From Haematococcus lacustris (lineage: Eukaryota > Chlorophyta > Chlorophyceae > Chlamydomonadales > Haematococcaceae): a DNA stretch of 64,000 bases. The stretch lies in NCBI GenBank assembly GCA_030144725.1, contig JASKMD010000025.1:744001-808000 (forward strand). Reading direction: 5' to 3'. Shown piece after piece: positions 1-64,000 of the stretch. Positions within the stretch are counted from its first letter, which is position 1, and each line of letters starts with the position of its first letter. Made by a program: the position numbers and the translations under genes. Under the pieces are notes generated by a model. It was not told the DNA's origin and made no database searches. It saw nothing but the letters and a program-made list of their open reading frames with translations.

Positions 1-305
1 AATGCCCATTTTACAGGGTCCTGTGACCCTGCGCAGGGTCCTGGTGACCCTGTGCAGGGTCCTGCCGACCATTTTACAGGGTCCTACTGACCATTTTACA
101 GGGTCCTGTGACCCTGCGCAGGGTCCTGGTGACCCTGTGCAGGGTCCTGGTGACCCTGTGCAGGGTCCTGCCGACCATTTTACAGGGTCCTACTGAACAT
201 TTTACAGGGTCCTGCAACCCTGTGCGGGGTTCTGGTGACCCTGCACAGGGTCCTACCAACCTCGTTTGCAGGGTCCTGCTACACGTTTGCAGGGTCCTGC
301 CGGTC
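1..305. repeat. AGGACCCTG palindrome array (F, left block)
   Basis: Tandem units of about 21 bp are built from the near-palindrome AGGACCCTGYRCAGGGTCCT with short spacers (GGT, CCGACCATTTTA). This is probably the left subterminal array of F, continuing out of the window. Open frames across it are repeat translations. Confidence 0.85.
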
Positions 306-825
306 AACATTAAAGTACATGTCTTAACGTCGCAACACCTCGCAACACGTCGCAAAGGACCTACATAAGACACGCAACTCAACGCTAAATCACCTTCCAC
401 AAACACCTCGCACACCTTGCTCAAACACCTCGCACAGGTTCCGCAGAGTACAAGTCGTTACGTCCATACACCTTGCAACACCACGCAACACCACTGCAAA
501 ATGTATGCATCGTCGCCTGAATACCTCGCAGCACCACTACACAACGTATGCAACGACGCCCGAACACCTCGCAACACCACTACAAACGACATGTATTGCT
601 GATGCTAAGCACATGCATTGATGCAAGGTGACAACACCACACAACAACACAACACAACATCACAACAGCAACAACACAGCGACTCATGCCTTACACACCA
701 CTTATGCCATGTGCACAACCACAAGGACTGGCTGCACCTCCTTGCTGTGGGCTCACACCTTATCACTTATCACCTTAAGCACTTTGCCTTGCTGCCTATG
801 CCCCATGGCACCAAATCAGGTTGGG
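306..825. repeat. CAACACCTCGCAACAC dispersed repeat
   Basis: Degenerate tandem repeat of CGCAACACCTCGCAACAC followed by (ACAACACC)n. The same order (this repeat, then a CAACAACAC tract, then a G-rich block) recurs at 40093-40960 inside element D. No gene is supported. Confidence 0.65.
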
Positions 826-2600
826 CTAGGCTGGGCTAGGCTAGGCTAGGCTGGGCTGGGCTGGGCTGGGCTGGGCTGGGCTAGGTTAGGCTGGGCTGGT
901 CTAGGCTTGGCTCCAGGTTGCCCGCTCCAGGCTGCCCGCTCCAAGCTGTTACGCCAAGGGCTGCTGGGTGCCATGGGGTGGGGGGAAGGACAGGGGAGGG
1001 GAGGAGGGTAGGTAGGTGGCAGACTCGGAAGTGGTGGTGGTGGGATGGGGCAGGGATGGGAGAAGGGGGCAATGGGCAGCAGTGTGACCATCAGACCTGC
1101 GGCAGCAAGAGGCATCCTTGCAATTAGGCTTGGCGTTGGGGACAACTCATGTGCAGGGACTGGCCACTTACAGTTATGCTCCATGTGACGCCGCTACCGC
1201 CTTGCTTGGAATCACCAAGCTATGCTACACCTGTCATGCTCCAGCTGTCAACAACTGCAAGCAAACATCAGCCAACACGCAGATGAATAAGGACATGCAT
1301 GACCAGAACTGGGCTGGGTAGGCTGACACCACCAGAGCATGTGCACTCACCTGAAGTCCTGGCTGCCGCTCCAAGCGCCTCCTATCTGCTGCTCTTGGCT
1401 GCTGCTCTTGCTTACTGCTCATGGCTGCAGGGGAGGAGAGGGGAGGGAGTAGGGAGTAGGGGAGGGGAGGACCTGCAGCAAGCAAGGGGTCACAAACACA
1501 TTGGGTGGGGGCTCGCCGCTCATTAGGTTTGTGAGTGGGACTAGAGCATACTAAGCTTCTTACCTGAGTGGTTCCTCCCGGCGTTGGGCAAGAGATAGGG
1601 GTGGCAGTGGTGGGCGTACCTTTGTTGATGGGGGAGGGGGAGTGGGAGTGGGAGAGGGGAAGGTGGAGGTGGAGGGGATGGTTCCAGGTTGCAAGGTAGG
1701 ATAGGGAGGGGGTGGGTCTCCTGGCTACTGGGTAGGGTAGGGTAGGGAGGTTAGGGGGAGGGGGAAGTGCGGGGTAGGGAGACGTGGTGGTGGTGGTGGT
1801 GGTGGTGGCACAGGGTAGGGAAGTGGGAAGGAGGCAAGGGCAGGAGTGTAGGCATCAGACCTGCAGCAAGCAAGGAACGTGCTTACATTGAGGCTGGCAT
1901 AACATCATGGCAAGCTGGCTGTCATGTGTTGCATGACGAAGGCACTTACCTGGCATAGGGGTATGGTCTTTATTGTCTTCATTGTGCCATGTTGTTCTTA
2001 TCTTGAGTTCTTGGCATTCCACCTGCAAGCAACCCGAGCCACATGAGAAGCACATCGATGATCTTCGCTATGACCTTTCCCTCACGTCGCACCTTTCCCT
2101 GGCTAGCAATCTCGCTACATCTTGGCCCCTTCGCTCATCCTGGTCGCATGGCTGGCAGGCTCGCAGCTAAGCTTTTGGCTATGATATGCTCCTAGCTGCT
2201 GGCTGATCCTGGCTGCAACCGCTATGCCGCTCCTGGCTGTTGGTGACTGCGTCGTGTCCGCTTGTGTTGTTGTCCGCTACCTTTTGTGGCGAACCGCTGA
2301 TGTTGTGCGGTTGCTGGGTAAATGGCTGGCTGGCTAGTGGCTACGGTGTGTTCGTGGCTAGCATCTACATCATCGCCCCTGGTGGTGAGAGATGCTGCCG
2401 GCCCTGTTGGCTGCTCCTGGCCGCTCCTGGCTGTTATTGCCAGCTTGGCGGGGCAGTCCTAATTCTTGCGCGATGCCTTTGCTTCCTTCGCAGTTCCTTT
2501 GCGAGAACTTCATGCAGCCTCCATGCTGCCGAATTATTTTGTAACATGTTGGCTTCGTTGTTAGGGCTTGGCTGTACTGTGTAACTTAATGGTCAAGTCT
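826..2600. repeat. G-rich dispersed repeat with intron-like cassettes
   Basis: Begins with (GGGCT)n, followed by G-rich tracts. It contains two minus-strand intron-like cassettes, 1097-1171 and 1861-1949, bounded by GTAAGT and CTTGCTGCMGCAG. The block is related to 40960-41660, 19000-20330 and 21470-22530. From 2150 to 2560 it holds CTCCTGGCTGC-type repeats that match, inverted, 39520-39650. No protein with recognisable domains is seen. Confidence 0.55.
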
Positions 2601-2631
2601 AAGATGATATGAATCAATGAGCACGGTCGGT

Positions 2632-3059
2632 AGGACCCTGCACAGGGTCCTAGCACACAGGGTCAACAGGACCCTGCACAGGGTTTTCAGGACCCTGCAC
2701 AGGGTCCTAGGGTCACCATGGTCGTAGGACCCTGCACGGGGTCCTGGCACACAGGGTCAGCAGGACCCTGCACAGGGTTTCCAGGACCCTGCACAGGGTC
2801 AGTAGGACCCGGCACAGGGTCCTAGGGTCATCATGGTCGTAGGACCCTGCACAGGGTCCTGGCACCAAGGGTTGGAAAGAGGCCAAACAGGGTCTGCAGG
2901 ACCAAGAACAGGGTCTGCAGGAAGCCCAACAGGGTCCTGGCACACAAGGCCGTAAGGATGCCTAACAAGGTCTTGTCAGTAGGACCCTGCACAGGGTCGC
3001 CAGGACCCTGCACCGGGTCCTGCGACCATGGTGACGCAAGGACCCGGCGCAGGGTCCTA
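2632..3059. repeat. AGGACCCTG palindrome array (F, right block)
   Basis: About 16 copies of AGGACCCTGCACAGGGTCCT or one-base variants, separated by AGCGTCATCATGGTCGT-like spacers. It lies about 310 bp inside the F terminus at 3373, the same position as the array of F' (39053-39375) relative to its terminus at 38740. Confidence 0.85.
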
Positions 3060-3373
3060 GGACACGGGCCATAGCTCATCACTGGCTTGGACGTTTTGCA
3101 TGCCACTTACTAGGTTGGGCAGCTGTAACCACCCTCTACAATCGCTCATACTCACATTTAATGGAAAGTCACTTTGGTCACACGGTGCCAACTCCCTTAG
3201 CCAAAATCAGGGTCTCAGCCCCACACCTGGCCCAGCAACTCGACACCGAGTGAGAATTACACTTTGGCCCAAGAGAGTCTTGTCATCCCCTAGGTCACAG
3301 CAGCCCACATACCAAGTTTCAAACCCCAACTCTCAGGTTTTTCAAGCCAGCCAGGCCTTAATTTGCACGAGTG

Positions 3374-3800
3374 TACAGATAGGCTGGTGTTTTTCTGTAC
3401 AGATGGCAAGCGAAAGCATCTGTACAGATTGTCTGGTGTCAATCTGTACAGATACAAATTGCTGTCATCTGTACAGATACCTGGGGTTTCGTCTGTACAG
3501 ATGAACAAGAGAACATCTGTACAGACAGTGGAAAGGTACTATCTGTACAGATGCGCTGATCACATCTGAACAGATAGCATAAGAGAGCATCTGAACAGAT
3601 AAATTAGATTGTATCTGTACAGATAGTGATATAAAGCATCTGTACAGATAGCTATAGGGATTATCTGTTCAGATAGCCATAGCTACGTCTGTACAGATAG
3701 CGCAAGGAAGCATCTGTACAGATTCGTATAGGTGCGTCTGTACTGATTGAGAAGAAGAGTATCTGTACAGATACTTAGAGGTTCGTCTGTACAGATAACA
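3374..3800. repeat. ATCTGTACAGAT palindrome array 1
   Basis: About 18 units of the perfect 12-bp palindrome ATCTGTACAGAT (rare variants such as ATCTGAACAGAT) with 10-12 bp variable spacers, period about 23 bp. The first unit is cut in half by the right end of element F. The array ends 10 bp before the ATG at 3811, so it also occupies the promoter position of that gene. Confidence 0.9.
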
Positions 3801-4967: not shown

Positions 4968-6224
4968 TTAGATCTGCCACTTCACACGCAATGGAAACAC
5001 ACCCTCCATGAGGCGCTCCTCCCCCCCTATGTGCGTGGTGTCGATGAAGATGGACACCCAATTGCAATCATTTTCTTCCACAGCTTGCTTTATGTGCAAA
5101 GCAACATCATCATAATGGCACCCCGTGCACCGAGCCAGCCACACGGCGCTGAGCCTGGGAAGGCCTACTATGACGGCCTTCCACAGCTCAACGGATGAGA
5201 GGATGTGGGCATTCTCAATACGCAAATAATGGCACGTGCCACCAAAACCTGCCAAGGCTTTTAAATCACTGGCAGCCACGGGAGATCGGTAGACGCTGCT
5301 GCCACACTCCACTTGCACCTCCTTGAAGCAGCCTTGCAAGGGACGCAAGGCAGCCACTACCTCTGGAGGGTAGCTTCCCACACTCATGCGCAACTTATCG
5401 ACCACCAGCTTGTGACCGGCATGCGCAGCATAAAAGCCCTCCATGGAAGAGCCCTCACCACCCCAGGACCCATCCAAGCGCTTAATGTGTATTGCCACCA
5501 AACCATTCAGGGTTGGCAGCTTGCTCAATGTGGCCCAGTGCATGGTGTCCACATGTAAGGTCTCCCACATGCTGACCTGCTCAGCAAGGGAGTCCTCCAG
5601 GTCGTCCACAGTTGGGACATGTAGGGAACGAAGGTCGAGGGTGGACTTGACAAAGGCTGACAGGCCGCTGTTATTGTCGCCCGTCCAGCTGGTTGTGGTG
5701 AGGTCCAGGTGGGTCAGCCGCTGAGCTATGGCTGGGTGGGACAGGAGCCTGGTCAAATCTTGGATGTCGACGAGATGCACGCTGATCTTCAAGGCTGTGC
5801 AGTTTGGCAGGTTGATGGACAGCAAGTCCTGCCAGCTCTCAAGGTCCGTGTTGCGCAGGAAATTGAGCTCTCCCTTGAGATGCACTGTGTGGACAGTTGG
5901 GCAGATGCCAAAGTCTTCGACCATCTTGGCCAGGCGTTCTGAGAAATCGGTCTTGGGCCAGAGACCCCGCCGCTTCAAGACCAACACGACTGGTTCCTCC
6001 CTTGTCCTGAATGCCTCCGCGGCCGGCAGCCCCAGGAAGCCCGAGTATGCGTCGATGTACAACACCAATGTCTTGCAATTGACCAAGCAGGCGCTGAGGG
6101 TTTTCGTGCTGCAGCGGCTGAAAAGACGAGCTATGGGAAGCGCCGTCACCAACTTGACAATTTTAGTAAGTATGTCATTCGGCATATCGCTGAGGCGCTT
6201 AGGGCGGTCCGTGGGTTGCGACAT
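4968..6224 (-). CDS. F-box/LRR-like protein, 418 aa
   Basis: The N-terminus fits a divergent F-box: LSDMPNDILTKIVKLV at residues 11-26, then a cysteine- and leucine-rich helix. After it come degenerate leucine-rich repeats, with segments such as RLTHLDLTTT, LRSLHVPTV and WETLHVDTM (about residues 170-250). F-box proteins are substrate receptors of SCF ubiquitin ligases, and LRRs usually bind the substrate; that role here is inference from family. The protein aligns throughout with the products at 6357-7646 and 11929-13251 (shared RxLTHLDL, WxTLHVDxM and LSKLPxL blocks). The gene is a single open frame with its ATG at 6224, 132 bp from the divergent ATG at 6357. Confidence 0.75.
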   Translation of the reverse strand: MSQPTDRPKRLSDMPNDILTKIVKLVTALPIARLFSRCSTKTLSACLVNCKTLVLYIDAYSGFLGLPAAEAFRTREEPVVLVLKRRGLWPKTDFSERLAKMVEDFGICPTVHTVHLKGELNFLRNTDLESWQDLLSINLPNCTALKISVHLVDIQDLTRLLSHPAIAQRLTHLDLTTTSWTGDNNSGLSAFVKSTLDLRSLHVPTVDDLEDSLAEQVSMWETLHVDTMHWATLSKLPTLNGLVAIHIKRLDGSWGGEGSSMEGFYAAHAGHKLVVDKLRMSVGSYPPEVVAALRPLQGCFKEVQVECGSSVYRSPVAASDLKALAGFGGTCHYLRIENAHILSSVELWKAVIVGLPRLSAVWLARCTGCHYDDVALHIKQAVEENDCNWVSIFIDTTHIGGEERLMEGVFPLRVKWQI

Positions 6225-6356
6225 CGTGGGACGCTATTGCTGCTGTGTGCGATGTACTGGGTGATGCACATGTCCCTTGCGGTTGTACTGGTTGGACTTG
6301 CAATGATTGGTGCAAGTGTTGTGCCGTGCAATCGTCGCGATTCCAATTCGCCAACT
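6225..6356. promoter_or_regulatory. Bidirectional promoter region between F-box-like genes
   Basis: This 132-bp gap separates the head-to-head F-box-like starts at 6224 (-) and 6357 (+). It contains TTGCAATGATTGGTGCAAG, which resembles the TGCAAGTGCATGATGCAAG motif in the leaders of other members (10700-10730 and 13450-13480). No TATA box is obvious. Confidence 0.35.
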
Positions 6357-7646
6357 ATGGCCGCCCCCACCTTGCTCTGCCACCTGCCCACAGAAGTCTT
6401 GTCCAACATTGCCTCGCGCTTGTTGTCGAAGGCTGATGTAATGGCGTTCAGTCGCACCTGTGGCGCAATCCTGGCAGCACGCCTAGCGACCTGCTCGACT
6501 CTCACCCTCTACTTGGACCGCGTAGAAGTGAAGCGATTCGTGAAGCTGCCAGCCGTGGCGGTGCTGCGCACAAGGACTGCGCCGCTGAAGCTGATATTCC
6601 GGCAACATGCCAACACGGACTCCACTTTCGATTCAGGCCTGTTGAGGGATGTGTTAAACGAGCTAGGTGCCTGCACAGCCGTCCGTGCCATGCAGCTGGA
6701 AGGAGTCAGGGGGATTCAGCTACAGCTGTGGCCGTGGCTGGCTGACAGCATGGTGGCGTGCTTCCCCAACCTCCAAGGCTTCCGCATCCAGGGGCTGGGC
6801 CTTCGCCTTGACCAGGCTGGCAGTGTGCTCACCAAACCTGCCTTCAGCAGCCAGCTCACCCATGTGGACATCAGCACAGCCCAGGTGCTACCAGCCAGCC
6901 CAACACAAGTCGCTGCCTTCGTCCAGGCCTCTCTTTCCCTCCACTACCTTCATGTCAGCAGCCTGGACCAGCTGCAGGTCTCTCTGCGTGACGCACCATG
7001 CAGCTGGCGCACGCTCCATGTGGACAACATGGAGAGCACCACCGTGAGCAAGCTGCCTCTCCATGCCGTCACTGAGGCTGTGCTTATTGGGTGCCTAACT
7101 GTGTCCACGGTGTACCACCCCTTGTCAGCTGTCACAGCCATGGCTACCAGCTTCGCTGATGGTGTGGCTGTGAGGCCACAGGTTCATGTGTTGAACCTCA
7201 GTGTCTTTGTAGCCACACGAAATGTGGATGCGTACATTGCCTCCCTGCTGCCTCTGAACGGTTTCTTCGATCAGCTGCAGGCTTGCTGGGGTGATGCATA
7301 CAACAACAAGCCCTTTGATGCCGCGGATGTGGCAGCTGTGGCTCCCTTGTGTGGAGAGATCCACACATTGAGGGTCAAGTATGCAGTGCTAAAATCATCC
7401 CCTCAGCTGTGGCTGTTGATTGTGGATAGCATGCCTTCCGTCACTGCAGTGTATATTATCCAGTGCAATCATGGCTGGGTGCCTGTGGCTGATGATCTGC
7501 GGGAAGTGGGCAGCCGTGAGGGGTGCAGGGCCATGGACATCTACGTAGAGTGTGGGCACATGGGTGCTCGTGATCGTGCTGTGCTTGCGAGGCGGACGGG
7601 TCAGCATGCCTTGCGTGTGCATTGGCTGCGTTCGATCGTCCTGTGA
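6357..7646 (+). CDS. F-box/LRR-like protein, 429 aa
   Basis: I place the start at ATG 6357. An in-frame ATG at 6216 would add 47 residues that do not align with paralogues and would overlap the divergent gene. Residues 6-45 read as a clear F-box (LCHLPTEVLSNIASRLL, then FSRTCGAILAARL). LRR-like segments follow, such as LTHVDISTAQV, LHYLHVSSLDQL, WRTLHVDNM and VTEAVLIGCL. Expected role: SCF-type substrate receptor acting with Skp1 and cullin, inferred from the domain. It is the closest match of the 11929-13251 product. It converges with the gene at 7908-9050. Confidence 0.78.
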   Translation: MAAPTLLCHLPTEVLSNIASRLLSKADVMAFSRTCGAILAARLATCSTLTLYLDRVEVKRFVKLPAVAVLRTRTAPLKLIFRQHANTDSTFDSGLLRDVLNELGACTAVRAMQLEGVRGIQLQLWPWLADSMVACFPNLQGFRIQGLGLRLDQAGSVLTKPAFSSQLTHVDISTAQVLPASPTQVAAFVQASLSLHYLHVSSLDQLQVSLRDAPCSWRTLHVDNMESTTVSKLPLHAVTEAVLIGCLTVSTVYHPLSAVTAMATSFADGVAVRPQVHVLNLSVFVATRNVDAYIASLLPLNGFFDQLQACWGDAYNNKPFDAADVAAVAPLCGEIHTLRVKYAVLKSSPQLWLLIVDSMPSVTAVYIIQCNHGWVPVADDLREVGSREGCRAMDIYVECGHMGARDRAVLARRTGQHALRVHWLRSIVL

Positions 7647-7907
7647 ACGTACATAGCCCACTCCTAATTAAACGACGTGTGGGCTTACATTGGCAACCTT
7701 GGCGCATGGCATGTCTGTTGTAATGCTAACATCTCATGGATTGGCTTCAACTATAAACATTGTACGGAACCTCGAGGGCAATGGCGCTTAATTGAGTCAT
7801 TAATTAACATTGTCACTCATGGCCACCCATCCTTGGAGTCTGTGCTGTCCAAACAGGCCCATACCTTGTCACTGTAACCCAGGACTAAGCAGCGTGGTGG
7901 CAGCATG

Positions 7908-9050
7908 TCAGTGCGCATAATGTATGCTGAACGACGCACCCGGAGCCATGGCATTCTTCACAGCCCACTCGTGCCATGAATACAGCGTGCACATGGCATT
8001 CCTGAACTGGACCCCAGCACACCCTTTCAACATTGGAATCACAGCATCCACCACAAGCGGCTGTATCAACTGCTTGCCATCATTGCCTGGCTCCCCCACC
8101 TCCACCAGGGCCTCCCTAAACCGTCCCACCAGGGGCTTCAGGGCTGCTACTTGTGCACATCCATCATTCCTTGTGAATGCCATGCTCAGCATCCCAATAT
8201 GCTGACGCTTAAACCGGCCTGAGCTGAGGTCTGCCACACCTCTGTTCAAGGCCGCCATATCCGGCTCTGGCAGGACGACGGTGAGGTCAGATATCAGTAG
8301 GGTTGTGACGGACTGTGGCAGGTTGCCCACGTCTGTTAGGCTCATCTCTGTGACGCTCAGCTTCACAAGGTTGCAGGTGCGGTCACGAAGGGAGATGGGG
8401 AGGGGGCCCAGGTAGGTGGCTATCAAGGTTGTCAGCCCCAAAGCTGGCACTACCCACTGATGAGGAACATCACTTGCCCTGTCTGTCAGGAGGGCAGTTT
8501 GGATGTCCACATGCTTGATCCGCCCCACAACCAGCTGGTGGCTGAGGAGTTCCAGCAGCTCTGAGTCCAGCATTATGAAAGGCTTGATACCCATCACCTG
8601 GCAATTGGGGAAGTTGGATATCAGCCTCTCCGCCAACCAGGCCCCCACTGGCAGGTGCTCGTAGGTGGGCTCCTCTGCCGTGTGCTCGTCCATGACGAGT
8701 CTGATCTCCACGCTGTGAACAGCCTCACAGTAGCCCAGGAACCCAATCACCCCCTCCACTCTGCACCTCATGGCGTGTGGCCCAAGTCGCTGCTCCAGGG
8801 TCAGCATTAGCGATAGACGCTGCCGACGTCCATACAGAGCCGCCAAGTGGCGAGGTGATAGATGCGTATAGATGGTTTCTGAGTCGATGCTAAGTGCTAG
8901 AAAGTCGCAAGTCGCCAGGCACGTCTCACGGAACTCATCGGTGATTGGGCTAGGATCGCTATCCTGACCGGGCCGTATAAAATCACCGCCGCTTGTTACA
9001 ACGACAGGCTCGACCCAGCTTTGCCCCATCACTGAGCGCTGCATTGTCAA
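7908..9050 (-). CDS. LRR-like F-box family protein, 380 aa (tandem paralogue 1)
   Basis: A single open frame, strongly similar over its full length to the product at 9539-10675. Shared blocks include SIDSETIY.HLSPRHLAAL, GRRQRL, EHLPVGAWLAERL, SNFPNC and GRFREA. A canonical F-box is not recognisable; the N-terminal 30 residues are unlike the 4968/6357/11929 group. The middle (FPNC, RIKHVDIQTALLT, LVKLSVTEMSLTDVGNLP) has the same LRR-like layout as that group, so I treat it as a divergent branch. Similarity to the next copy continues into both flanks, showing a segmental tandem duplication of about 1.3-1.5 kb. Function unknown beyond a likely protein-binding repeat. Confidence 0.7.
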   Translation of the reverse strand: MTMQRSVMGQSWVEPVVVTSGGDFIRPGQDSDPSPITDEFRETCLATCDFLALSIDSETIYTHLSPRHLAALYGRRQRLSLMLTLEQRLGPHAMRCRVEGVIGFLGYCEAVHSVEIRLVMDEHTAEEPTYEHLPVGAWLAERLISNFPNCQVMGIKPFIMLDSELLELLSHQLVVGRIKHVDIQTALLTDRASDVPHQWVVPALGLTTLIATYLGPLPISLRDRTCNLVKLSVTEMSLTDVGNLPQSVTTLLISDLTVVLPEPDMAALNRGVADLSSGRFKRQHIGMLSMAFTRNDGCAQVAALKPLVGRFREALVEVGEPGNDGKQLIQPLVVDAVIPMLKGCAGVQFRNAMCTLYSWHEWAVKNAMAPGASFSIHYAH

Positions 9051-9060
9051 ACGTTGTGCT

Positions 9061-9113
9061 TGTACTGCAAGCCGGGCGCACAGCTTGCATCATGCACTTG
9101 CACGCCCAACAAT
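9061..9113 (-). promoter_or_regulatory. Conserved 5' leader motif of F-box-like genes
   Basis: Just upstream of the ATG at 9050, on the minus strand, lies GGGCGTGCAAGTGCATGATG. The same string occurs upstream of the ATG at 10675 (about 10700-10735), and with one change in plus orientation at 13450-13470 upstream of ATG 13520. It is probably a shared promoter or leader element; it could also be only residual duplication. Confidence 0.45.
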
Positions 9114-9153
9114 TGTTCATGGCACGGTTCAGCATAGCGCGTCCTTAGGCCCG

Positions 9154-9484
9154 TATGAGTCTCTTTCGCATTTGAGGAGTGCTGTCGGGGAAGTCAGGGC
9201 TCTGTTACATGTACGGCTGGCTGGCCGTGGCACGCTGATATAGGTGACATTCACACACACACACACCACCACAACCCCGCTTCCACTATAAACACATTCA
9301 TATATTGCATGACACGTACCGCAAGGCCTTGTCCCCACGTTCAAGTCGAGTTGTACTGTCACGCCCAACTGACGTTGTAACCACCAGCCTCCCTCCAATA
9401 CTGTAGACCCCTACAGTACTGTACACATCTACAGTACTGTATACACCTACAGTACTGTAGACCTCTATGAGTCTCTTTCGCATT
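9154..9484. other. About 293-bp insertion flanked by 19-bp direct repeats
   Basis: TATGAGTCTCTTTCGCATT occurs at 9154-9172 and again at 9466-9484, bracketing about 293 bp that the paralogous intergenic region after 10738 does not match. The insert has a (CA)n stretch and three CTACAGTACTGTA palindromes at its right end (9404-9461). This may be a retroposed or other small element with a long target duplication, or a simple duplication. Confidence 0.4.
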
Positions 9485-9538
9485 AGAGGCCACATCATGT
9501 CATTGAAACACTGGACTAAGTAGCATGGGGGCAGCATG

Positions 9539-10675: not shown

Positions 10676-10755
10676 ACGATGTGCCTGTACTGCAGGCTGG
10701 GCGCACGGCTTGCATCATGCACTTGCACGCCCAACAAAGATGCAGACTAGTCGTT

Positions 10756-11062
10756 ATCTGTACAGATGCTGTAGTCGTTATCTGTACAGATGCTCGAGCG
10801 TCGCGTCTGCATAGGCTCTCTCTCAGTATCTGTACAGATAGAAGCTTCTCCGTCTGTGCAGATCTGTATACATTGAATCTGTACAGATTTATCTGTGGTA
10901 TCTGTACAGAAAGCAGCTTTTCCTAATCTGTACAGATGCTATCTTTAATATCTGTACAGATAACAGCTTGTCTCTATCTGTTCAGATGGCTCTCTTACTA
11001 TCTGTACAGATCGCAGCATCTCTCTATCTGTACAGATACTACTCGCACTATCTGTACAGATT
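10756..11062. repeat. ATCTGTACAGAT palindrome array 2
   Basis: About 13 units of ATCTGTACAGAT or one-base variants with variable 10-12 bp spacers. It lies in the upstream region of the 9539-10675 gene. No CACTCACGATAAA terminus is found next to it, so it is either an internal array or the remnant of an element end. Confidence 0.88.
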
Positions 11063-52350: not shown

Positions 52351-52532
52351 CTGCATGTGGCACAGAGCACCACTGTTGTATTGGCTGAGGTTATGGGTTG
52401 TGACATGCATGAGCTGTGTTGCTTACTCCAGCGCTGTCCCTATAAGGCTTCAGCGCAGGTGCCACATGAATCCTGCGCTGAAATCACACAGCAGCTACGC
52501 AGGTGCCATATGGCTACAGCGCTGGAGTCATG

Positions 52533-52771: not shown

Positions 52772-52848
52772 TGTGGCTGCAGCGCATGTGTTACTTGGTG
52801 ATCCATGCAATCCCTGCAATCCCAGCAGTCCCTGCCATGTGTGGTTTA

Positions 52849-55116
52849 TGCAGGTTGACCAACGTGGGACCAAGCGCCAGCTGGACACTGCAGCCCCGCC
52901 TGCTGAAGCCACAGCCCCACCAGCCAAGGCACGCCCCTCCCTGTTTGGCTCAGCCCGGCCCAAGATCACGATGTCCTGCAGGGCCAGGGCAAAGGTGAAA
53001 AGGACAGTTATCAAACGGCAAGTTATGTACCCTGCTGACTAATCTGTTATGCCTGCTGATGATATCTGATATATACGCCACAGCACATGTAATCTGTTGT
53101 TGTTGTGCAGAGCCACGGCGTTGAAGGTGCGGGAGCAGCTGCTGGTGGCCAACTCAGTGACACAGCAGGTGAGACAGGAGGGACGGAATAGCAGGGGTGA
53201 GGCAGAGGTGCCACCAATACCAGCGCATTGTAGCTCAGACACGACGGTAAAGACTGTGATGCAATGTGTGTGCAGATATCCCGGACGGCCTGAAGAGGTT
53301 TTTGAATGAGCACTTCAGCGTGAGTCATGTGATGTCGCCGCCACTAATTGTCACCTTACCAGCTGTCCACCAGGCTCAGAAGTTGAGGGTCAGTTAATGG
53401 TACATGCAGAACACAGACAAGGCATTGAAGGCTTTGGCAGAGCGGTTGCCCCCGGCAGATGCACGGAAGGAGGCGGAGGAGCAGCGACCACTGAAGGTAA
53501 CACATCAGGACAAGCATGTCAACTACAGTACACGGAGAGGGACAGCCTACTACTATTGCATGTGTTGTAGGACCGACCAACCAGCCGTCTCAGGTCAAGG
53601 CCCGTGGTGCCCAAGGAGCCTGAGCTGGTGTACAAGAACCCTGGGTACCGCAAGCCAGAGCAGGTGATCTTCAGGCCTGATCAGGTCAAGGAGTTCCAGC
53701 AGTACGTGCTGACACACGGCTTTGGCATCATTCAGCTGGATCAGAAGTACGTGGCTGGCGAGCTGGAGGTGTGGGCCATGGTGACGCTGAAGGACTACGG
53801 AGCTGTCATCTTCGAGAAGAGCAAGGTGGACGCCCATGGAGAATTTGTCCGTGATGGCGACAGCTACGTAAGTACACGGCACTGCAGATAATGTGCCACA
53901 GAGCAGCGGCATCTGCATCAATGCATCACAATATTGTGTTTCTAATAAGAGCGTGAAAGGCTGCCGTGCAGCCCCTGATCCACATGGCAATCTTCATACT
54001 GACTATATGTGTTTGTTTGCAGGTAGGCACAGACTTTGGCACTGGCCAGCGCCTCCAGCTTTACTTCACCACTCCCAATGCGGATGGCACCCTGCCTGAC
54101 GAGGTGACCATGGCGGCCTTGAACGACGCGTTCTGCTGGGCGCACTTCGACAAACTGACAGAGGAAGACAAGACACGCCACCTGCTGGCAATAGAAGTGA
54201 CCAAGAAGTACTTGACAAAGCTCCAGGTAAACTTGACGTTGGGATAACCGTGCCCACCCAACATGCTGACTTTGCTGAAGCCATGCTGCATGCGCCGACC
54301 CTATCCCTATCCCTATCCCTATCCCTATCCTTACCCCTATCCCTATCCCTATCCCTATCCTTATCCCTAACCCCGACCCTATCCCTATCCCTATCCCTAT
54401 GCCTAACCCCAGCCCTAGCCCTAACCCTAACCCTAACCCTAACCCTAACCCTAACCCTAACCCTAACCCTAACCCTAACCCTAACCCTAACCCTAACCCT
54501 AACCCTACCACTGTCACCAGAGCTAGCACACGCGTCACTAGAGCAGGTGGCACATATCTCCTGTGCGGTGATCACCTGTGTGGGGTCACTTGCTACATCA
54601 TAAGGGTCTGAGCATGTGTAGTGTCACTTACATTCTTTACAGGTGTGCGCCCAGCAGCTATCTCCTTGCCCACTGCGTGGCGGCACCATCTTGGCCAATG
54701 ACTACCTGAACTCAAGGGTTGTCACGCCAGGGGGGTACAAGCTGGACCCAAAGGGGCCCAAAGGGTTGGTACGGCCTCAAGCCTTGCATGTGGATGTGAG
54801 CCCCAAGGAGATCGCCACTCCCTGGGTAAGGAAACAGCCGCCCTGATGGCTGCCCGGCTGCCCTGCTGCTGCCCTTCCCTGACCGGCTGCCCTGATGCCC
54901 TGCTACTGCCCTACCTCGATAGGCTGCCCTGATGCCCTGCTGCAGCCCTACCCGGATGCCTGCCCGGCCGCCCTGCTGCTGCCCTACCCTGCCCAGCCCA
55001 GGGTGAGACCACAACAACAGGATTGCCTGGTGCTGCGCAGGTGCCAACCATGGCTCAGCCCCTATGGAGCACCCCAACAGCAACCTCGCCGACGGATGCA
55101 TTGGAAGCTCTTGCAT

Positions 55117-55147
<31 letters not shown>

Positions 55148-56489
55148 CTCATCTGCAGGTGTCGCCATACCTACCCCAATCCCTGCAGCAGCGGCAGCGG
55201 CAGCAGCAGCAGCACCGGTGGAAGCAGAAGCATCAGCAGCAGCAGCAGCAGCACCAGTGGAGGCACCAGCAGCAGCAGGGGCAGCAGCAGCAGGGGCAGC
55301 AGCGGGGACAGCAGCAGCAGCAACGACAGCAGCAGGAGCAGCAGCAGCGGGAGCAGCAGGCATTCCCCACGCCCCCTCTTCCGCAGCGGCCACATCTGTG
55401 GCCGAGGGGGCAGCTGGTGCACCCCGCCCTACCGCAGCAGCCCCCACAGCCCCCTCCTACACTCCAGACCCTGCTGGCACATCCTCAAGGCAGGCACCCC
55501 CCCATGCCCCAACACCCGGGTTCAAGGTGTTTGGGCGTGAGGGCATGGTGCTCATCATTGCCATGCAGCTGGTCAGCATCCTCCTCATCCCTGGCAGCCA
55601 CGAGCTGGTGAAGCTGCTCGCCCAGTATTGGAACGCTGTCATGCCAGACGATGAGGGGCATGTGAACGAGGCTCTGCTGCCAGCGCTGGAGAAGGCGTTG
55701 TGCACGCTGACCCTTCTGGAGGTGATAGAGGTTGAGCTGCAGCCGGGTCAGGCGCTGGGTATGACGGGGGTGACCATTCACGCTGGCGCTCAGGGCCGAC
55801 CAGGCACAGCCTCTGCCCGTGCCCACTTCTATGGCAGTGTGTGCTTTGTGGAGAACACCACCACATTGGTCAGGCAGATGGGCAAGATCATTGACGGCGC
55901 AGCCATGCCTACAACAGAGGCCGACTTCAAGAATAAGAACAAGTGGCCAATCTGGAAGACCGAAGCAGGTGGCAGCATGGTGCCCCCTGAGCCATACGTG
56001 CCTGAGGCCCAGTTGGAGACGGACAGGCTGTGGCAGGACCGCTTCAACTGCTTTTTGGACGACACCAGGAAGAGGCAACCCCAGCTGATAGCTGCTTGGA
56101 AGGCAGCATTAGAGGCCAAGGCGGCGAAGTTGAAGGAGCAGAAAGCGGCTGAGGCCAGGGCTGCTAGGGCAGCCAAAGCTGCAGCAAAGGTGGCCCAGGG
56201 GGGGGCTGCCACGGCAGCACCAGCAGCAGCGGTCCAGAGTGGTCCAGCTGCGGAAGAGGCAAAGGGTGGGGCCAAGAAGGTGACCAAGCCAGCTGCAAGC
56301 AGGAGCGGAGGCCAGGCCAGGACGGGGGGCAGGGGCAGCGGCAGTGGCACTGGCGGTGGCAGAGGCAGGGGCGGTGGCAGGGGCAGAAGCGGGGGCAGGG
56401 GCAGAGGCAGGGCCAACGGGCAGAAGGGTGCTGGGGAAGGGGGTGGGGGGGAGGCTCCACCGGCTAAGCGCCGGAAGGGACCAAAGTAG
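52849..56489 (+). CDS. Accessory gene of element C, multi-exon, RGG-like tail
   Basis: First visible exon from 52849 or 52854 (QRGTKRQLDTAAPPAEA). Further exons by splice sites: 53111-53168, 53276-53321, 53374-53388, 53409-53496, 53571-53868, 54022-54225, 54643-54824, about 55041-56489. The middle has a compact domain (VIFRPDQVKEFQQYVLTHGFG, AGELEVWAMVTLKDYGAVIF). Then come Ala-rich and Gln-codon-like repeats (GCA)n, a helical domain (GREGMVLIIAMQLVSILLIPG ... LPALEKALCTLTLLEVIEV) and an Ala/Lys coiled coil. The tail is GRGRGGGRGRSGGRGR, likely nucleic-acid binding, and ends APPAKRRKGPK. It is the parent of the deleted copy in element B (16371-17123). By analogy with CACTA systems it may bind subterminal arrays; this is inference. 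Confidence 0.6.
54299..54508. repeat. Telomere-like (CCCTAT)n/(CCCTAA)n in an accessory-gene intron
   Basis: (CCCTAT)n followed by (CCCTAA)n, about 210 bp, in the intron 54226-54642. C-rich strand is again on the sense strand. The acceptor follows about 130 nt later. Confidence 0.92.
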
Positions 56490-57019
56490 GGAGTTGTGTA
56501 GGGCGCCAGCTGAGGAACAGCCATTGCACATCATCACGCCTTGCACCACAAGGTACACATAGGGCCAATGCGTCATGCTGTTGTTGCTGCTGAAGTTGCC
56601 TGCATGTTGGTGATGTTGGTGTGGTGGTGCCAGGCCAGCTTGTCATAATGTCATTGCCGCTCATGATGTTGTCGTTGTTCATGTCTCTGGTGCTGGTACA
56701 TGAGCATGATGACGAGTGTGAGGTCCACACACAGTGTAAGAGCCCGGCCTACAGTAATAGTCAGTATCCTATCATCCATATTTGATTACATTGATCAAGA
56801 TGGGCCATTGAGATGAGCCATAGACACAGGCAACATGAGTTAAGGTTTACACGGACTTCATCAAGGATAAACATAGGCTTGAGACATCAACCTGGCCTTG
56901 CATCAACAGAGCAACCTTCAACCAATAACATCAGCAATAACCGCAACAACCCACACAACAAACGATAGAAAAATGAAGGGAACAGAGCAACAACGTTGCT
57001 CCAGAGCATGGTACACATG
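56490..57019. other. 3' flank of accessory gene
   Basis: No gene. Homologous, inverted, to 16000-16370 in element B, which fixes the 3' end of the accessory transcription unit. Confidence 0.5.
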
Positions 57020-57975
57020 TCACCAGCGCGGTAGCCATTTGCTCCAGCACGGTAGTCATTGGCTCCAGCGCGGTAGCAGTTTGCTCCAGCGCGGTAGCCA
57101 TTTGCTCCAGCGCGGTTGCCATTATCTCCAGCGCGGTAGCCATAAGCTCCAGCGCGGTAGACTTAGCTCCAGCGCGGTAGCTATTTGCTCCAGCGCGGTA
57201 GGTATTTGCTCCAGCGCGGTTGCAGTTTGCTCCAGCGCGGTAGTTATTTGCTCCAGCGCGGTAGCAATTTGCTCCAGCGCGGTAGTCTTAGCTCCAGCGC
57301 GGTAGCTATCTGCTCCAGCGCGGTAGCCATTATCTCCAGCGCGGTAGCATTTTGCTCCAGCGCGGTAGCCAATTGCACCAGCGCGGTAGCCATTTGCACC
57401 AGCGCGGTAGCAATTTGCTCCAGCGCGGTAGCCATTATCTCCAGCGCGGTAGGTATTTGCTCCAGCGCGGTAGCCATTATCTCCAGCGCGGTAGGTATCT
57501 GCTCCAGCGCGGTAGGTATTTGCTCCAGCGCGGTAGCCATCATCTCCAGCGCGGTAGCATTTTGCTCCAGCGCGGTAGCCAATTGCACCAGCGCGGTAGC
57601 CATTTGCACCAGCGCGGTAGCAATTTGCTCCAGCGCGGTAGCCATTATCTCCAGCGCGGTAGGTATTTGCTCCAGCGCGGTAGCAGTTTCCTCCAGCGCG
57701 GAAGCTATTTGCTCCAGCGCGGTTGCCATTATCTCCAGCGCGGTAGCCTTAGCTCCAGCGCGGTAGCTATTAACTCCAGCGCGGTAGCCATTTGATCCAG
57801 CGCGGTAGCCATAGGCTCCAGCGCGGTAAACATTGGCTCCAGCGCAGTAGCATTTGCCTCCCGCGCGGTACCTAATGGCTCCAGCGCAGAAACCACAGGC
57901 TCCAGCGCAGAAAATACTAGCTCCAGCGCAGAAGCCACCGGCTCCAGCGCAGTTGCCCATGGCTCCCGCGCAGGT
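57020..57975. repeat. GCTCCAGCGCGGTAG array, 21-bp units (C, right)
   Basis: About 45 units GCTCCAGCGCGGTAGCCATT in one orientation; the core differs from the left array (GCGGTAG instead of GCTGCAG) and matches part of the intron array. A block of about 190 bp is repeated (57340-57430 and 57545-57640). Confidence 0.92.
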
Positions 57976-57998
57976 GACGCTGCTAATTCGTGTGAGTG

Positions 57999-58627: not shown

Positions 58628-58771
58628 CACTCGTAGGAATTAGCAGCCAGGCCCCCAGACCGACTTTGGCCGTTTGGGCTAAAATTTTGCCCACAAGTAG
58701 CTTGTGATGTAAGCAAGTCAACCCAAAAGAAATCAGGCCAAAAATATCAAAGGCTGGGGCTGGGGGGTATT

Positions 58772-59805
58772 GTTCAGTGCGTTCAGTGCACGGTTCAGTG
58801 CGTTCAGTGCAAGGTTCAGTGCGTTCAGTGCAAGGTTCAGTGCGTTCAGTGCAACGTTCAGTGCGTTCAGTGCAACGTTCAGTGCGTTCAGTGTAATGTT
58901 CAGTGCGTTCAGTCCAAGGTTTAGTGCGTTCAGTGCACAATTCAGTGCGTTCAGTGCACGCTTCAGTGCGTTCAGTGCACGATTCAGTGCGTTCAGTGCA
59001 ACGTTCAGTGCGTTCAGTGCACAATTCAGTGCGTTCAGTGCACGATTCAGTGCGATCAGTGCAAGGTTCAGTGCGTTCAGTGCACGATTCAGTGCGATCA
59101 GTGCAAGGTTCAGTGCGTTCAATGCTAGGTTCAGTGCGTTCAGTGCACGGTTCAGTGCGTTCAGTGCAACGTTCAGTGCGTTCAGTGCATTGTTCAGTGC
59201 GTTCAGTGCTAGGTTCAGTGCGTTCAGTGCACGGTTCAGTGCGTTTAGTGCACGGTTCAGTGCGTTGAGTGCACGATTCAGTGCGGTCAGTGCACAATTC
59301 AGCGCGTTCAGTGCTAGGTTCAGTGCGGTCAGTGCACGGTTCAGTGCGTTCAGTGCACGATTCAGTGCGTTCAGTGCAAGGTTTAGTGCGTTTAGTGCAA
59401 CGTTCAGTGCGTTCAGTGCACGGTTCAGTGCGTTCAGTGCACGGTTCAGTGCGTTCAGTGCACGATTCAGTGCGTTCAGTGCAAGGTTCAGTGCGTTCAG
59501 TGCAACGTTCAGTGCGTTCAGTGCATTGTTTACTGCGTTCAGTGCTAGGTTCAGTGCGTTCAGTGCACGGTTCAGTGCGTTCAGTGCAATGCTCAGTGCG
59601 GTCAGTGCACAATTCAGCGCGTTCAGTGCTAGGTTCAGTGCGGTCAGTGCACGATTCAGTGCGTTCAGTCCAATGTTCCGTGCGTTCAGTGCAAAGTTCA
59701 GTGCGTTCAGTGCACGGTCCAGTGCGTTCAGTGCAAGGTTTAGTGCGTTTAGTGCATGTTTCAGTGTGTTCAGTGCATGTTTCAGTGCGTTCTGTTTAGG
59801 TATTT
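58772..59805. repeat. TTCAGTGCGTTCAGTGCA array, 21-bp units (E)
   Basis: About 49 units; each is a direct dimer of GTTCAGTGC plus CAC, CAA or TAG. Unlike the other families the unit is not palindromic beyond TGCA. Period 21 keeps several frames open on both strands (for example 58770-59807 + and 57729-59612 -); these are not genes. Confidence 0.93.
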
Positions 59806-60279
59806 AGTGCTCATCAAACACCAAATATGAGTGTCATGTTTTCATGAATCCATGTCAAGGACATTACATAACACCAAATCATTGTCATGTTGTTCAGCAT
59901 TGCATCATTTTGCTCCAACTTCAACTCCCCTATCCCACTACACACGCTTGTTTTTTATAGGATGTTTGATGTACTGTTTGAGCTCCTAATAGATGTGTAC
60001 ATGACGTGTTGCTACATGTTTAGGCAATTGGAGCCCACGCTCACCGATACACCATGCTTCCACGCCACTTCAGCTGCTTTGGCGCTCAACAAATGCTCAA
60101 TGCAGGTGGACACTGATGGCTGGGTGCCTGGCGCATTGCTGGGCTGGTCACGTGTCTTGGCTGCAGGGCTGCGCTTCACGGGCGTTCCCCCTGCAGATCA
60201 CGCTGCACAAGAGGTTAAATCACTGCATTGGATGTGATCTCCCACGTGTGCCCTCTCCTCCTTGACCAGCCTGCTCACC
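59806..60279 (+). other. Possible exon of an element E gene
   Basis: A frame runs through 60025-60237. It could start after a TGTTTAG acceptor at 60024 and would contain LTDTPCFHATSAALALNKC and DTDGWVPGALLGWSRVLAAG. No domain is recognised and the gap follows, so the call is weak. Confidence 0.25.
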
Positions 60280-60779
60280 NNNNNNNNNNNNNNNNNNNNN
60301 NNNNNNNNNNNNNNNNNNNNNNNNNNNNNNNNNNNNNNNNNNNNNNNNNNNNNNNNNNNNNNNNNNNNNNNNNNNNNNNNNNNNNNNNNNNNNNNNNNNN
60401 NNNNNNNNNNNNNNNNNNNNNNNNNNNNNNNNNNNNNNNNNNNNNNNNNNNNNNNNNNNNNNNNNNNNNNNNNNNNNNNNNNNNNNNNNNNNNNNNNNNN
60501 NNNNNNNNNNNNNNNNNNNNNNNNNNNNNNNNNNNNNNNNNNNNNNNNNNNNNNNNNNNNNNNNNNNNNNNNNNNNNNNNNNNNNNNNNNNNNNNNNNNN
60601 NNNNNNNNNNNNNNNNNNNNNNNNNNNNNNNNNNNNNNNNNNNNNNNNNNNNNNNNNNNNNNNNNNNNNNNNNNNNNNNNNNNNNNNNNNNNNNNNNNNN
60701 NNNNNNNNNNNNNNNNNNNNNNNNNNNNNNNNNNNNNNNNNNNNNNNNNNNNNNNNNNNNNNNNNNNNNNNNNNNNNNN
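60280..60779. other. Assembly gap, exactly 500 N
   Basis: Placeholder-sized run of N. Frames crossing it are artefacts. Confidence 0.99.
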
Positions 60780-60795
60780 CGAATTAGCAGCGTCA

Positions 60796-61816
60796 CCTGC
60801 GCGGGAGGCATGGGCTTCTGCGCAGGAGCCAGTGTCACCTGCGCTGGAGCCAAGTGCCACCTGCCATGTGGCTCCCGCGCTGCAGCCGTGGCTCCCGCGC
60901 TGCAGTTATGTGGCTCCGGCGCTGCCGGTATGTGGCTCCCGCGCTGGAGCTATGCTGCTCCCGCGCTGCAGCTATGCTGCTCCCGCGCTGCAGCCATGCG
61001 GCTCCCGCGCTGCAGGTAGGTTGCTCCCGCGCTGGAGCTATACGGCTCCCGCGCTGCAGCAATGTGGCTCCCGCGCTGCAGCTATGTAGCTCCCGCGCTG
61101 CAGCAAAGCGGCTCCCGCGCTGCAGCTATGTGGCTCCCGCGCTGCAGCCTTGTGGCTCCCGCGCTGCAGCTTTATGGCTCCCGCGCTGCCGCTATACGGC
61201 TCCCGCGCTGCAAGTATGCGGCTCCCGCGCTGTAGCTCTATAGCTCCCGCGCTGCAGCTATGTAGCTACCGCGCTGCAGGTATGTAGCTCCCGCGCTGCA
61301 GCGTTATGGCTCCCGCGCTGCAGATATGCGGCTCCCGCGGCGAGCTATGTAGCTCCCGCGCTGCAGCTATGCGGCTCCCGCGCTGCAGCAATGCGGCTCC
61401 CGCGCTGTAGCTATATTGCTCCCGCGCTGCAGCTATGTAGCTCCCGCGCATCAGCATCGTATCTCCCGCGCTGCAGCGTTATGGCTCCCGCGCTGCAGCT
61501 ATACGGCTCCCGGGCTGCAGCCAAGCGGCTCCCGCGCTGCAGCTATGTTGCTCCAGCGCTTCAGCATTGTATCTCCCTCGCTGCAGCTATGTGGCTCCCG
61601 CGCTGCAGCCTTGTGGCTCCCGCGCTGCAGCTTTACGGCTCCCGCGCTGCAGGTATGTGTTCACGCACTGCAGCCATGTTGCTCCCGCGCTGCAGCCCTG
61701 TGGGTTCAGCGCTGCAGCCTTGTGGCTCCAACGCTGTAGCAACTGTTACCTTCTCTGCAGCTATTTAGCTCCAGCGCTGCAGCTATGTGGCACCTGCGCT
61801 GGAGCACCTGTTACCT
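60796..61816. repeat. GCTCCCGCGCTGCAG array (second C copy)
   Basis: Identical to 46830-47850 at offset 13966. Confidence 0.92.
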
Positions 61817-62078
61817 GCTCTGCATCCATGTGGCTCCATCGCTGGAGTACCTGGTACCTTCTGTGCTGGATGCAACATTGATACAATATGGATGCAGCAT
61901 TGACAATTATAGTGTTTCATTTCTTGTTTAATTCATAACTTTAAAATCAAGGGCACCGTCGTTCATTAGTTGTCACCCCGACTCTGCTAGTACCCATTTG
62001 CTACATGTCATATGTGCGTGCCTAGGTAGGTGCATTTGGTGTCACCATAAGCTATGCATGATACATTCTAGACCCTCA

Positions 62079-63245
62079 TCATGCCTTGCTGAGGCTGTTG
62101 TAGGGCACAAAGTACATGTCACCCACGCCTTCGCCATCTGGGAAGGCGCAAACCAACATGGTGTGCAGCAGCTCGCCATCAATGCCGTACCACTGATCAG
62201 GGTTGACATCCGACACCATCTGCTTGCGCTTTGGAGGTGGGGCGGCCGCAGTGGGGGCAGCAGGGCGAGGGGCGGGAGCAGCCTGCTGGGAGGCCAGCCG
62301 TGATGAACGGCGGTGACCTCCCTGTGCTGCGTCTGCCCCACCAAGCTGGACACCATTGGCCCCCTGGATGGGCATGGCCGCGGTCTGGTCTGCGGTTCCA
62401 CTGGGCCATCCCGTTGCTGGCGTTCTGGCTCAGGCTCAGGCACATCCTCAGGCACAGGCTCATGCTTGATATCACCCACACCATGGAGCAACTCTGCCAG
62501 GCCTCTCACCGGGTGCAAACGGACCAGCCGAGCGATAGCCAAGCGAAGGAAGTGGCCAGGATGGTCAGGGTGTTCCAACCTGACCCAGAACTCGATGTGG
62601 GCTGCATACTTGTTGATCTTCTCGGTGCTGCCCCCGTGAAAGTACTGAGCCAACACCCAGGTGCTGGGCCGCTTCACGGCACGCCTGTAAGCCACACTGT
62701 TCATCTTCTGCTGGGTGCACATAGCACGTGTGTAGTACCGCACCAAGCCTGGTCGGGCTGGAGGGACAGCTGCCTCACCGGGTACATTGGAAGCTGTGGG
62801 GAAGAGGGCGTTGACGTCTGCCGGCTCCCACCCACTGTGCTGCTCACGCCCCCGGTTCATCTCCCCAACCGTGATGCAGCAGGCCTGACGCACACGCTCC
62901 TCACTGTCAGGGACAGGGCATCGTAGGGACCCCGCGCCCACCAGTTGGCATTGCTGTCCCTCCTGCACCTGTGCATCTGCCACGCTGATGGGGTCCCGGC
63001 CAGGACCAACCAGCCGTGCCCGCTTGGGGCCTGCCCGCTGCTCCTCAGCATCCGCTGCATCTGGTCGCATAGCTGCAAAACGCTTCACCCCGCGGTGCAC
63101 CTGATCACGCAGGCAGGATATCAGCCCCTTGCTGCAGCCTGGAGAATGCTTGCCAGCCCACAGCTTGACGTACTGCATGAGCCGCTCCACCCAGAACTCC
63201 GCGTCACGGAAGCTGCGTCCCCGCTCCAGCTCTTGAAGGTACAGC
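62079..63245 (-). CDS. Transposase 3' exon, second C copy
   Basis: Same protein blocks as 48113-49279: AEFWVERLMQY, IEFWVRLEHP and, in the second frame, WYGIDGELLHTMLVCAFPDGE. It has the same apparent frameshift, here near 62371-62391. Upstream exons lie beyond the window. Confidence 0.7.
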
Positions 63246-63283
63246 CTGCACCCAACAAGCATGCCAGGATCCTGGCTTACTTG

Positions 63284-64000
63284 GTGACTGCAGCTATGTG
63301 GCTCCAGCGCAGGAGCCATGTATCACCTGCGGTGCAGCTATGTTGCTCCTGCGCTGGAGCTATGTGGCAAAATGGCTCCACCGCTGGAGCTATGCGGCTC
63401 CCGCGTTGTAGCCTTACGCTCCCGCGCTGGAGCAAATCGGCTCCAGCGCTGTAGCCATATGGCTCCCGCGCTGGAGCAGAGCGGCTCCAGCGCTGTAGCC
63501 ACATGGCACCCGCGCTGGACAAAACGGCTCCAGCGCGGTATCCAAATGGCACCCGCGCTGGAGCAAAGCTGCTCCAGCGCTGTAGCCATATGGCTCCCGC
63601 GCTGGAGCAAAGCGGCTCCAGCGCGGTATCTAAATGGCACCCGCGCTGGAGCAAATCGGCTCCAGCGCGGTAGCAACATGGCTCCCGCGCTGGAGCAAAG
63701 CGGCTCCAGCGCTGTAGCCATATGGCACCCGCGCTGGAGCAAATCGGCTCCAGCGCGGTAGCCATATGGCTACAGCGCTGGAGAAATGCGGCTCCATCGC
63801 TGTAGCCACATGGCACCCGCGCTGGACAAAACGGCTCCAGCGCGGTATCAAAATGGCTCCCGCGCTGGAGCAAAGCTGCTCCAGCGCTGTAGCCCTATGG
63901 CTCCCGCGCTGGAGCAAAGCTGCTCCAGCGCTGTAGCCATATGGCTCCCGCGCTGGAGCAAAGCGGCTCCAGCGCTGTAGCCATATGGCTCCCGCGCTGG
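63284..64000. repeat. GCTCCAGCGC/GCGCTGGAGC array (second C copy)
   Basis: Identical to 49318-50034; runs out of the window. Confidence 0.92.

Follow-up and report, generated by a model that had tools for sequence, protein, structure and literature searches.

Family-specific subterminal repeat codes in CACTC-ended transposons of Haematococcus as candidate binding platforms

The window analysed here, a stretch of 64,000 nucleotides of Haematococcus lacustris DNA (contig JASKMD010000025.1, positions 744,001 to 808,000; C136:744001-808000), contains several families of DNA transposons with CACTC termini and with subterminal arrays of short units that differ from one family to another. On balance we lean towards a joint reading, in which these families are sisters within one divergent CACTA-like clan of DNA transposons (CACTA/Mirage/Chapaev group) in Haematococcus and their arrays are family-specific binding platforms that resemble those of TnpA and VANC in their logic. 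Genome-wide counts refer to the Haematococcus pluvialis/lacustris assembly of 307.9 Mb in 597 contigs.

Terminal classes, array units and their codes

All five units that a preliminary description had attributed to CACTC-ended families were located in the window, namely ATCTGTACAGAT (six arrays, 129 sites with up to two mismatches), TACTGCKCAGTA (three arrays), the GCTCCAGCGC type (three arrays, a scaffold duplicate excluded), AGGACCCTGCACAGGGTCCT, and the TTCAGTGC dimer with 9+12 spacing (97 sites with up to one mismatch). The division of the ends into two classes was likewise confirmed: ends with AATTA at bases 11-15 lie at 15057+, 24410-, 46806+, 57998-, 38740+, 3373-, 58628+ and 52533+/52771-, and CACTC ends of the GATAAA type lie at 39651+, 43183- and 35485-. 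The CACTC 5-mer is not enriched within the window (118 occurrences against 171 expected), and the signal sits in the longer ends. Genome-wide, CACTC-N5-AATTA ends number 4,090 (2036+2054) against 106 (51+55) for the reversed pattern, CACTCACGATAAA ends 880 (443+437) against 3+0, and adjacent exact ATCTGTACAGAT pairs with spacers of 9-14 bp 5630 per strand against 0, the pair pattern being palindromic, so that both strands count identical places. The end searches asked for CACTC, which places CACTA-ended relatives outside the scope of the pattern. Ends of the GATAAA family are of two kinds, with CAAGGACCGG or TAAGGCCGACG as continuation. Transposable elements make up 50.8% of the published H. 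pluvialis assembly, and the available passages of that paper contain no description of CACTC elements (PMC10400597); no title on such arrays in algal elements appears in literature listings that did not extend to Repbase.

Both sides of element D (39651-43183, + strand, 3533 bp, GATAAA family), which is flanked by a 2-bp target duplication CA, carry ATCTGTACAGAT arrays, with 13 sites at 39797-40093 on the left and 25 sites at 42394-43006 on the right. Element A of the same family (25820-35485, +) consists of an array, a transposase gene, a second array and a right end, its left terminus being unrecognised; the left array (25820-26166, 15 sites) has no recognised end, and the right array (34288-35339, 46 sites) lies 146 bp inside the end at 35485. 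The remaining ATCTGTACAGAT arrays are found at 3393-3796 (17 sites, adjoining the end of an E element at 3373) and at 10756-11061 (13 sites, no recognised end). Element B (15057-24410, +) has TACTGCKCAGTA arrays at 15135-15696, 17240-18393 and 22802-24397, and element C (46806-57998, +), whose termini match at 22 of 22 positions, has arrays at 46900-47839, 49404-50422 and 57023-57971. Nested in C is a miniature inverted-repeat transposable element (MITE) of 239 bp with CACTCCTACAAATTA ends (52533-52771, +) and the target duplication TG. The left part of element F (58628-60279, +), with a GTAGG end and an array at 58772-59792, is cut by an assembly gap. The right end of the E element (2656-3373, -) contains AGGACCCTGCACAGGGTCCT sites, with further such sites at 14-299, and the left end of a second E element (38740-39509, +) contains AGGACCCTGCACAGGGTCCT-type sites within a 237-bp tandem repeat. 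Because positions 60780-64000, on the far side of a gap of 500 N (60280-60779), repeat 46814-50034 without a single difference in 3221 positions, they are probably a scaffold duplicate, so that the window holds one C element rather than two.

The arrays sit at family-specific offsets inside these ends. On contig C1 the first 100 of 665+669 ATCTGTGCAGAT pairs fall into 14 clusters, 12 of which lie 249-300 bp inside a CACTCACGATAAA end of the right orientation, at offsets of 249 bp (8 clusters), 254 bp (1) and 300 bp (3); random placement of the clusters gave a mean of 0.05 and a maximum of 2. An exact ATCTGTACAGAT lies 118-148 bp inside 90+73 of the 880 GATAAA ends (control 0), a gap that fits mainly one of the two end kinds, and GTAGG ends with GTTCAGTG 115-145 bp inside gave 62+87 matches (control 0), some ends being counted twice where two units fit. 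These family-specific tests took the place of a generic one, in which arrays of any period of 17-26 or 34-52 were counted 20 times inside and 13 times outside an end at 29 of the first 30 loci (L029, identical to L025, was dropped); that comparison says little because elements are nested and because the inside stretch of short MITEs overruns their far end. Two observations weigh against assigning every array to an element: three of the window's six ATCTGTACAGAT arrays have an intact end beside them, and the five TA-code clusters listed on C1 comprise one with an exact 13-mer end, one whose end is mutated and three with unread flanks. Whether arrays occur mostly outside CACTC elements was checked within a portion of the GATAAA family; solo arrays do exist there, yet are a minority for the TG code (2 of 14 clusters). 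At C1:4221724-4227898, four GATAAA ends at exact 2,054-bp steps represent a tandem duplication of element pieces.

The segregation of units with element families, another claim of that description, was borne out by a matrix of repeated 9-mers from the left and right arrays of 12 elements, and the contrary outcome, units that do not segregate, was looked for and not found. In nine of the 12 elements the two ends share code words (2 to 40), and the matrix is near block-diagonal, with blocks for GATAAA, C/ACACA, B/ACA, GTAGG and CTACA (three copies) and cross-family overlap in two cells of 2 words each. The other three elements (CGG and two AGGCA) share no words between their ends, as repeated words are scarce or absent on one side at the threshold used. 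The code is finer than the terminal inverted repeat, as CACTCACACAAATTA ends carry units of either the GCTCCAGCGC type (C1_1767) or the TACTGCTC type (C2_213), and codes differ array-wide while ends remain alike. Sister codes seldom adjoin: TA pairs number 5630, TG pairs 665+669 and mixed pairs 54+32, one order having been searched. Half-site centres in the window read TA in 92 of 101 cases, and in a nested element of the GATAAA family whose right-type end is the same they read TG 30 times, CA 4 times, CG once and TA never. GTAGG loci are pure in five of five cases, with either CACTGAAC (49 and 75 occurrences, CCTGAAC 0) or CCTGAAC (46, 82 and 147 occurrences, CACTGAAC 0). CAG/CTG occurs in 13 of 13 unit consensuses of families or subfamilies, the next commonest trinucleotide in 9 of 13, and may mark a common contact or methylation site; the pattern was noticed post hoc and sister units are non-independent, which makes the joint P of 9e-5 optimistic.

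The ATCTGTACAGAT sites look selected, judging from their sequence, because the palindrome is conserved and the spacers are not. Across the six window arrays the mean majority is 0.93-0.98 in the 12-bp palindromic core against 0.38-0.62 in the spacer, a contrast slightly biased towards the core by the use of the core to find units; NNCAGAT is kept in 101 of 111 ATCTG-anchored half-sites, and equal-length spacers between exact cores share 49% identity within an array. The geometry of the arrays contradicts the earlier proposal that the period is always about two helical turns and that all sites face the same side of the DNA. Spacing of ATCTGTACAGAT is mostly 21-26 bp, and the phase vector R at 10.5 bp is 0.04-0.18 in all six window arrays, no higher than the random expectation; the 21-bp arrays (starting at 15135, 57023 and 58772) are phased, with R of 0.84-1.00, and 22-bp arrays are phased only at 10.9-11.0 bp per turn (0.64-0.98). 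Periods of 18 bp (AGGCA), 12 bp (L008, L052) and 10 bp (L053) occur elsewhere, as do direct-repeat units. Helical phasing as a general design, with a filament on one face, is not supported in view of the unphased ATCTGTACAGAT arrays, and the palindromy described for most units applies to many of them without being general.

Element proteins and class membership

The transposases of elements A (28815-34058, +; several exons with approximate limits) and C (52390-48079, -) are homologous multi-exon genes, with 28-43% identity per exon, and three CTACA elements match the C transposase at 42-58% per exon. Exons of the A gene lie at 28815-29291 (zinc-finger-like by eye), 29757-30254, 30613-31188, 31076-31417, 31790-32524 and 33030-34058, and those of the C gene at 52217-52390, 51249-51806, 50906-51157 and 48079-49356. 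The 1-kb array at 49404-50422, which has the C code, sits between the last two C exons, probably within an intron. Resemblance of the transposase blocks to CACTA Tnp2 was noted by eye only, as were candidate DDE/C(2)C/H(3-4)H motifs in 51249-51806 and 31790-32524. The last exon of one transposase is 92% identical to a protein of H. lacustris, and searches for wider protein relatives gave 1, 4 and 3, all from that species (for the last two, scoring was confined to about 8000 candidates with the most words in common).

Genome-wide there are at least 130 matches to the last exon of A, with 118 out of 669 candidates scored. Among 25 close copies on contigs that the list of 100 ends covers, nine have a family end and an exact ATCTGTACAGAT 939-1449 bp downstream; among 49 other-family or more distant copies, which include the scaffold duplicate and three copies at 63-64%, none has such an end and unit. 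The suggestion that transposase and array unit co-diversify finds support in the one family tested, and it does not extend to the second element protein, which fails to track the code.

That second gene, missed in the preliminary description, lies in element C at 53972-56489 (+), in pieces at 53972-54232, 54628-~54810 and 54933-56489, with LHVDV in the second piece and IPGSH, TIHAG and SARAHFY in the third. From these motifs we read it as a putative 2-oxoglutarate/Fe(II) dioxygenase. It accompanies the transposase in the C and CTACA families, recurs next to arrays in at least four families (CTACA, C, GTAGG and AGGCA), and has at least 94 matches genome-wide (94 of 26398 candidates scored). In an alignment of 19 rows, HxD is present in 13 of the 13 rows aligned there (not counting the row from the window, in which LHVDV stands in another piece), HAG in 18 of 18, and Arg before HFY in 16 of 18 (all but L036 and P0004). 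Three of five proteins gave a PhyH match at E 0.0015-0.0032, below the cut-off, and one more at 0.07. A TET/JBP identity is not supported, there being no Pfam match at E up to 10 and no TET chain in PDB sequence searches. At ten of ten loci, selected from the 94 matches to span identity, an array starts 104-382 bp after the stop of the dioxygenase-like gene (the L051 array is weak, with a 45-bp unit, and L059 and L060 hold only the later part of the frame), and a CACTC-N5-AATTA end follows within the piece at four of the ten. Four copies of the gene, each with one internal TAG, stand at exact 2,621-bp steps at C476:17895694-17904894, again a tandem duplication of element pieces.

Five GTAGG loci separate the dioxygenase-like gene from the code. 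By the protein they group as L054/L055/L056 (95-98% identical) and L057/L058 (92%), and by code as L054/L058 versus L055/L056/L057, so that dioxygenase identity between loci of unlike code is 88-96%. It is the terminal 150 bp that tracks the code, with identities of 91% and 97% within code groups and 81-86% between them (the piece of L055 includes no end). Since similar dioxygenase copies carry different codes, the dioxygenase is on these loci an unlikely reader of the code, and since the terminal sequence goes with the code, end and array behave as a module. This exclusion, together with the association of nine of 25 against none of 49 copies, leaves the transposase as the best remaining candidate reader.

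Target duplications were read for 22 end pairs (four from the window, eight from the first 30 loci and ten from other regions, leaving out the near-identical repeats L026/L027 and L028/L029). A 2-bp duplication flanks 16 of the 22 (chance P 2.8e-15), a 3-bp duplication one and a 4-bp duplication none. The six pairs without a duplication are those of window elements B and C, both AGGCA elements, L016/L017 and L022/L023; B and C may have been rearranged, and each flank of C falls within copies of a single 114-bp minisatellite, the two being out of register. Some classifications accept target duplications of 2-3 bp for CACTA elements. Measured against the CACTA superfamily, the studied families read CACTC rather than CACTA at their termini and show a 3-bp duplication in one pair rather than as the rule, and they do have subterminal repeats inside the terminal inverted repeats; the published description of CACTA elements gives target duplications of 3 bp and subterminal repeats that extend over several hundred nucleotides (PMC8978399). 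The wide CACTA/Mirage/Chapaev/Transib (CMCT) definition specifies 5'-CA..TG-3' termini and duplications of 2-5 bp (PMC12730594), both of which the studied families show.

Proposed role of the arrays and alternatives

We propose that a protein encoded by the element, either the transposase or an unseen TnpA-like product rather than the dioxygenase, would read the code of its family and use the array as a docking platform. Docking would label an element as self, both for transposition and for escape from silencing, and in a less certain step the dioxygenase would remove silencing marks at the marked copies. New codes would arise as a subterminal site is duplicated in tandem and units are replaced across the whole array, with end and array moving as one module. 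The arrays may thus act in transposition, like the TnpA sites of En/Spm, or in anti-silencing, like VANC sites; given a putative eraser gene beside them, anti-silencing is the addition that we tentatively prefer. In its most extended form the proposal would be a sequence-addressed anti-silencing system shared by many families, in which the arrays are self-recognition addresses read by an element protein, a common code-blind 2-oxoglutarate/Fe(II) dioxygenase erases marks at the addressed copies, modules of end and array are swapped independently of the effector gene and codes are replaced, so that one genome would contain about a dozen distinct addresses; we regard this form as unlikely.

Several results weigh against the platform reading. 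The end pairs of B and C lack a target duplication, and in several arrays core and spacer differ little, the contrast being weaker in 21- and 22-bp arrays and almost absent from the AGGCA_3900 and 51-bp arrays. Neither the transposase exons nor their joined reading has a Pfam match, and tblastn detected no transposase in B, D, GTAGG_C1_307, ACACA_C1_1767, CGG_C1_2065, C2_213 or the two AGGCA elements; 16 of the 25 close transposase copies lack the end and unit, for which an exact match was demanded. The code fails to track the dioxygenase, a tblastn search of element A with two relatives turned up no dioxygenase, and the window open reading frame (ORF), L036 and L052 have no PhyH match. The AlphaFold model of the dioxygenase-like protein, built on the 19-row alignment, has a mean pLDDT (predicted local distance difference test score) of 41, too poor to confirm the fold.

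A classical CACTA role alone, with the arrays as extreme subterminal repeats that are bound by TnpA or transposase and needed in cis, and with the dioxygenase-like gene as a passenger, would agree with the standing of subterminal repeats as a standard part of CACTA elements (PMC2613891, PMC8978399), with the location of the arrays at ends, and with their segregation with the transposase in the one family tested. However, among the first 100 places of the CACTC-N5-AATTA list at least nine short pairs with the same 15-mer, 239-354 bp in length, have multiplied with few or no units, most with target-site duplications where these were read; as short elements without kilobase arrays have multiplied, we infer that long arrays are unneeded for mobility in trans. 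The recurrence of the dioxygenase-like gene beside arrays in at least four families also speaks against a purely classical role, which we judge somewhat unlikely.

Host-side readers offer an account in which the arrays attract a host repressor, activator or small-RNA pathway and a change of code is an escape. Codes that shift array-wide while ends stay alike, as in an arms race, would be expected under it, and the array in the probable intron of the C transposase and the structured transcripts that palindromic arrays could yield would fit as well, but matching codes at both ends, together with the link to a single transposase family, argue for a cognate protein of the element and render host reading quite improbable. 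Least of all do we credit passive minisatellites, formed by slippage near transposon ends and without function, even though the genome is rich in minisatellites and the AGGCA_3900 and 51-bp ATCTGTGCAGAT arrays show the same uniformity in every part of their unit. All six ATCTGTACAGAT window arrays keep their core while spacers vary in sequence and length, which disfavours a passive origin for the GATAAA family, and codes match at both ends and lie at fixed offsets.

The platform reading has precedents among plant elements, and it is the scale and the combination of parts that look new. Like En/Spm and the soybean Tgmt*, the Haematococcus families have CACTA-like termini and subterminal repeats that differ between families; in Tgmt* these repeats can form palindromes, and their coevolution with TNPA-like proteins has been proposed (PMC2613891). 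The Haematococcus elements differ in having CACTC termini, duplications of 2 bp, arrays that span 0.3-1.6 kb and reach about 80 units, a transposase without a Pfam-detectable tnp2, and a dioxygenase-like second gene. They also possess the feature typical of VANDAL/VANC systems, a short tandem motif that differs between related families. VANDALs are Mutator-like elements. In Arabidopsis VANDAL anti-silencing, VANC-bound motifs occur in tandem repeats (PMC5735166, PMC10398659); the motif there is a 9-base direct repeat, whereas here many units are palindromic, the elements are CACTA-like and anti-silencing is only proposed. The fungal EnSpm, Plavaka and ESTA elements are CACTA-group transposons that carry a dioxygenase, and the wider group has CA..TG termini with duplications of 2-5 bp (PMC12730594). 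Their gene is of the TET/JBP type, in contrast to the sole, sub-threshold PhyH match obtained here; the word subterminal does not occur in that paper.

Few natural series exist for studying two open questions, the diversification of DNA-binding specificity among mobile elements and the means by which families escape cross-activation. With many sister families in one genome, codes that can be read, sites in the thousands and two candidate proteins, the reader can be looked for by comparison or exchange of modules. Should the second gene encode an eraser, CACTA-type elements, transposon-borne dioxygenases and VANC-type addressing would join in one testable system.

Other features of the window

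Several long ORFs that look F-box/leucine-rich-repeat-like occupy both strands of 4968-14374, and among them only 5943-7646 has an F-box-like match, below the cut-off (E 6e-4). The public gene model P0008 fuses transposase sequence with sequence of a similar ORF, by capture or mis-annotation. One array of element B gave no match against phage records. The regions 36894-38663 and 44703-46808 comprise an ORF with a sub-threshold Josephin match (E 3e-5, 24.4 bits versus 26) and endonuclease/exonuclease matches, which resembles a long interspersed nuclear element (LINE) by eye, and an ORF with the 2A-like peptide GDVEANPGP. Long runs of CCCTAG/TAGGGT hexamers at 30261-30591, 50694-50880 and 54298-54507 lie between exons of the A transposase and of the C genes.

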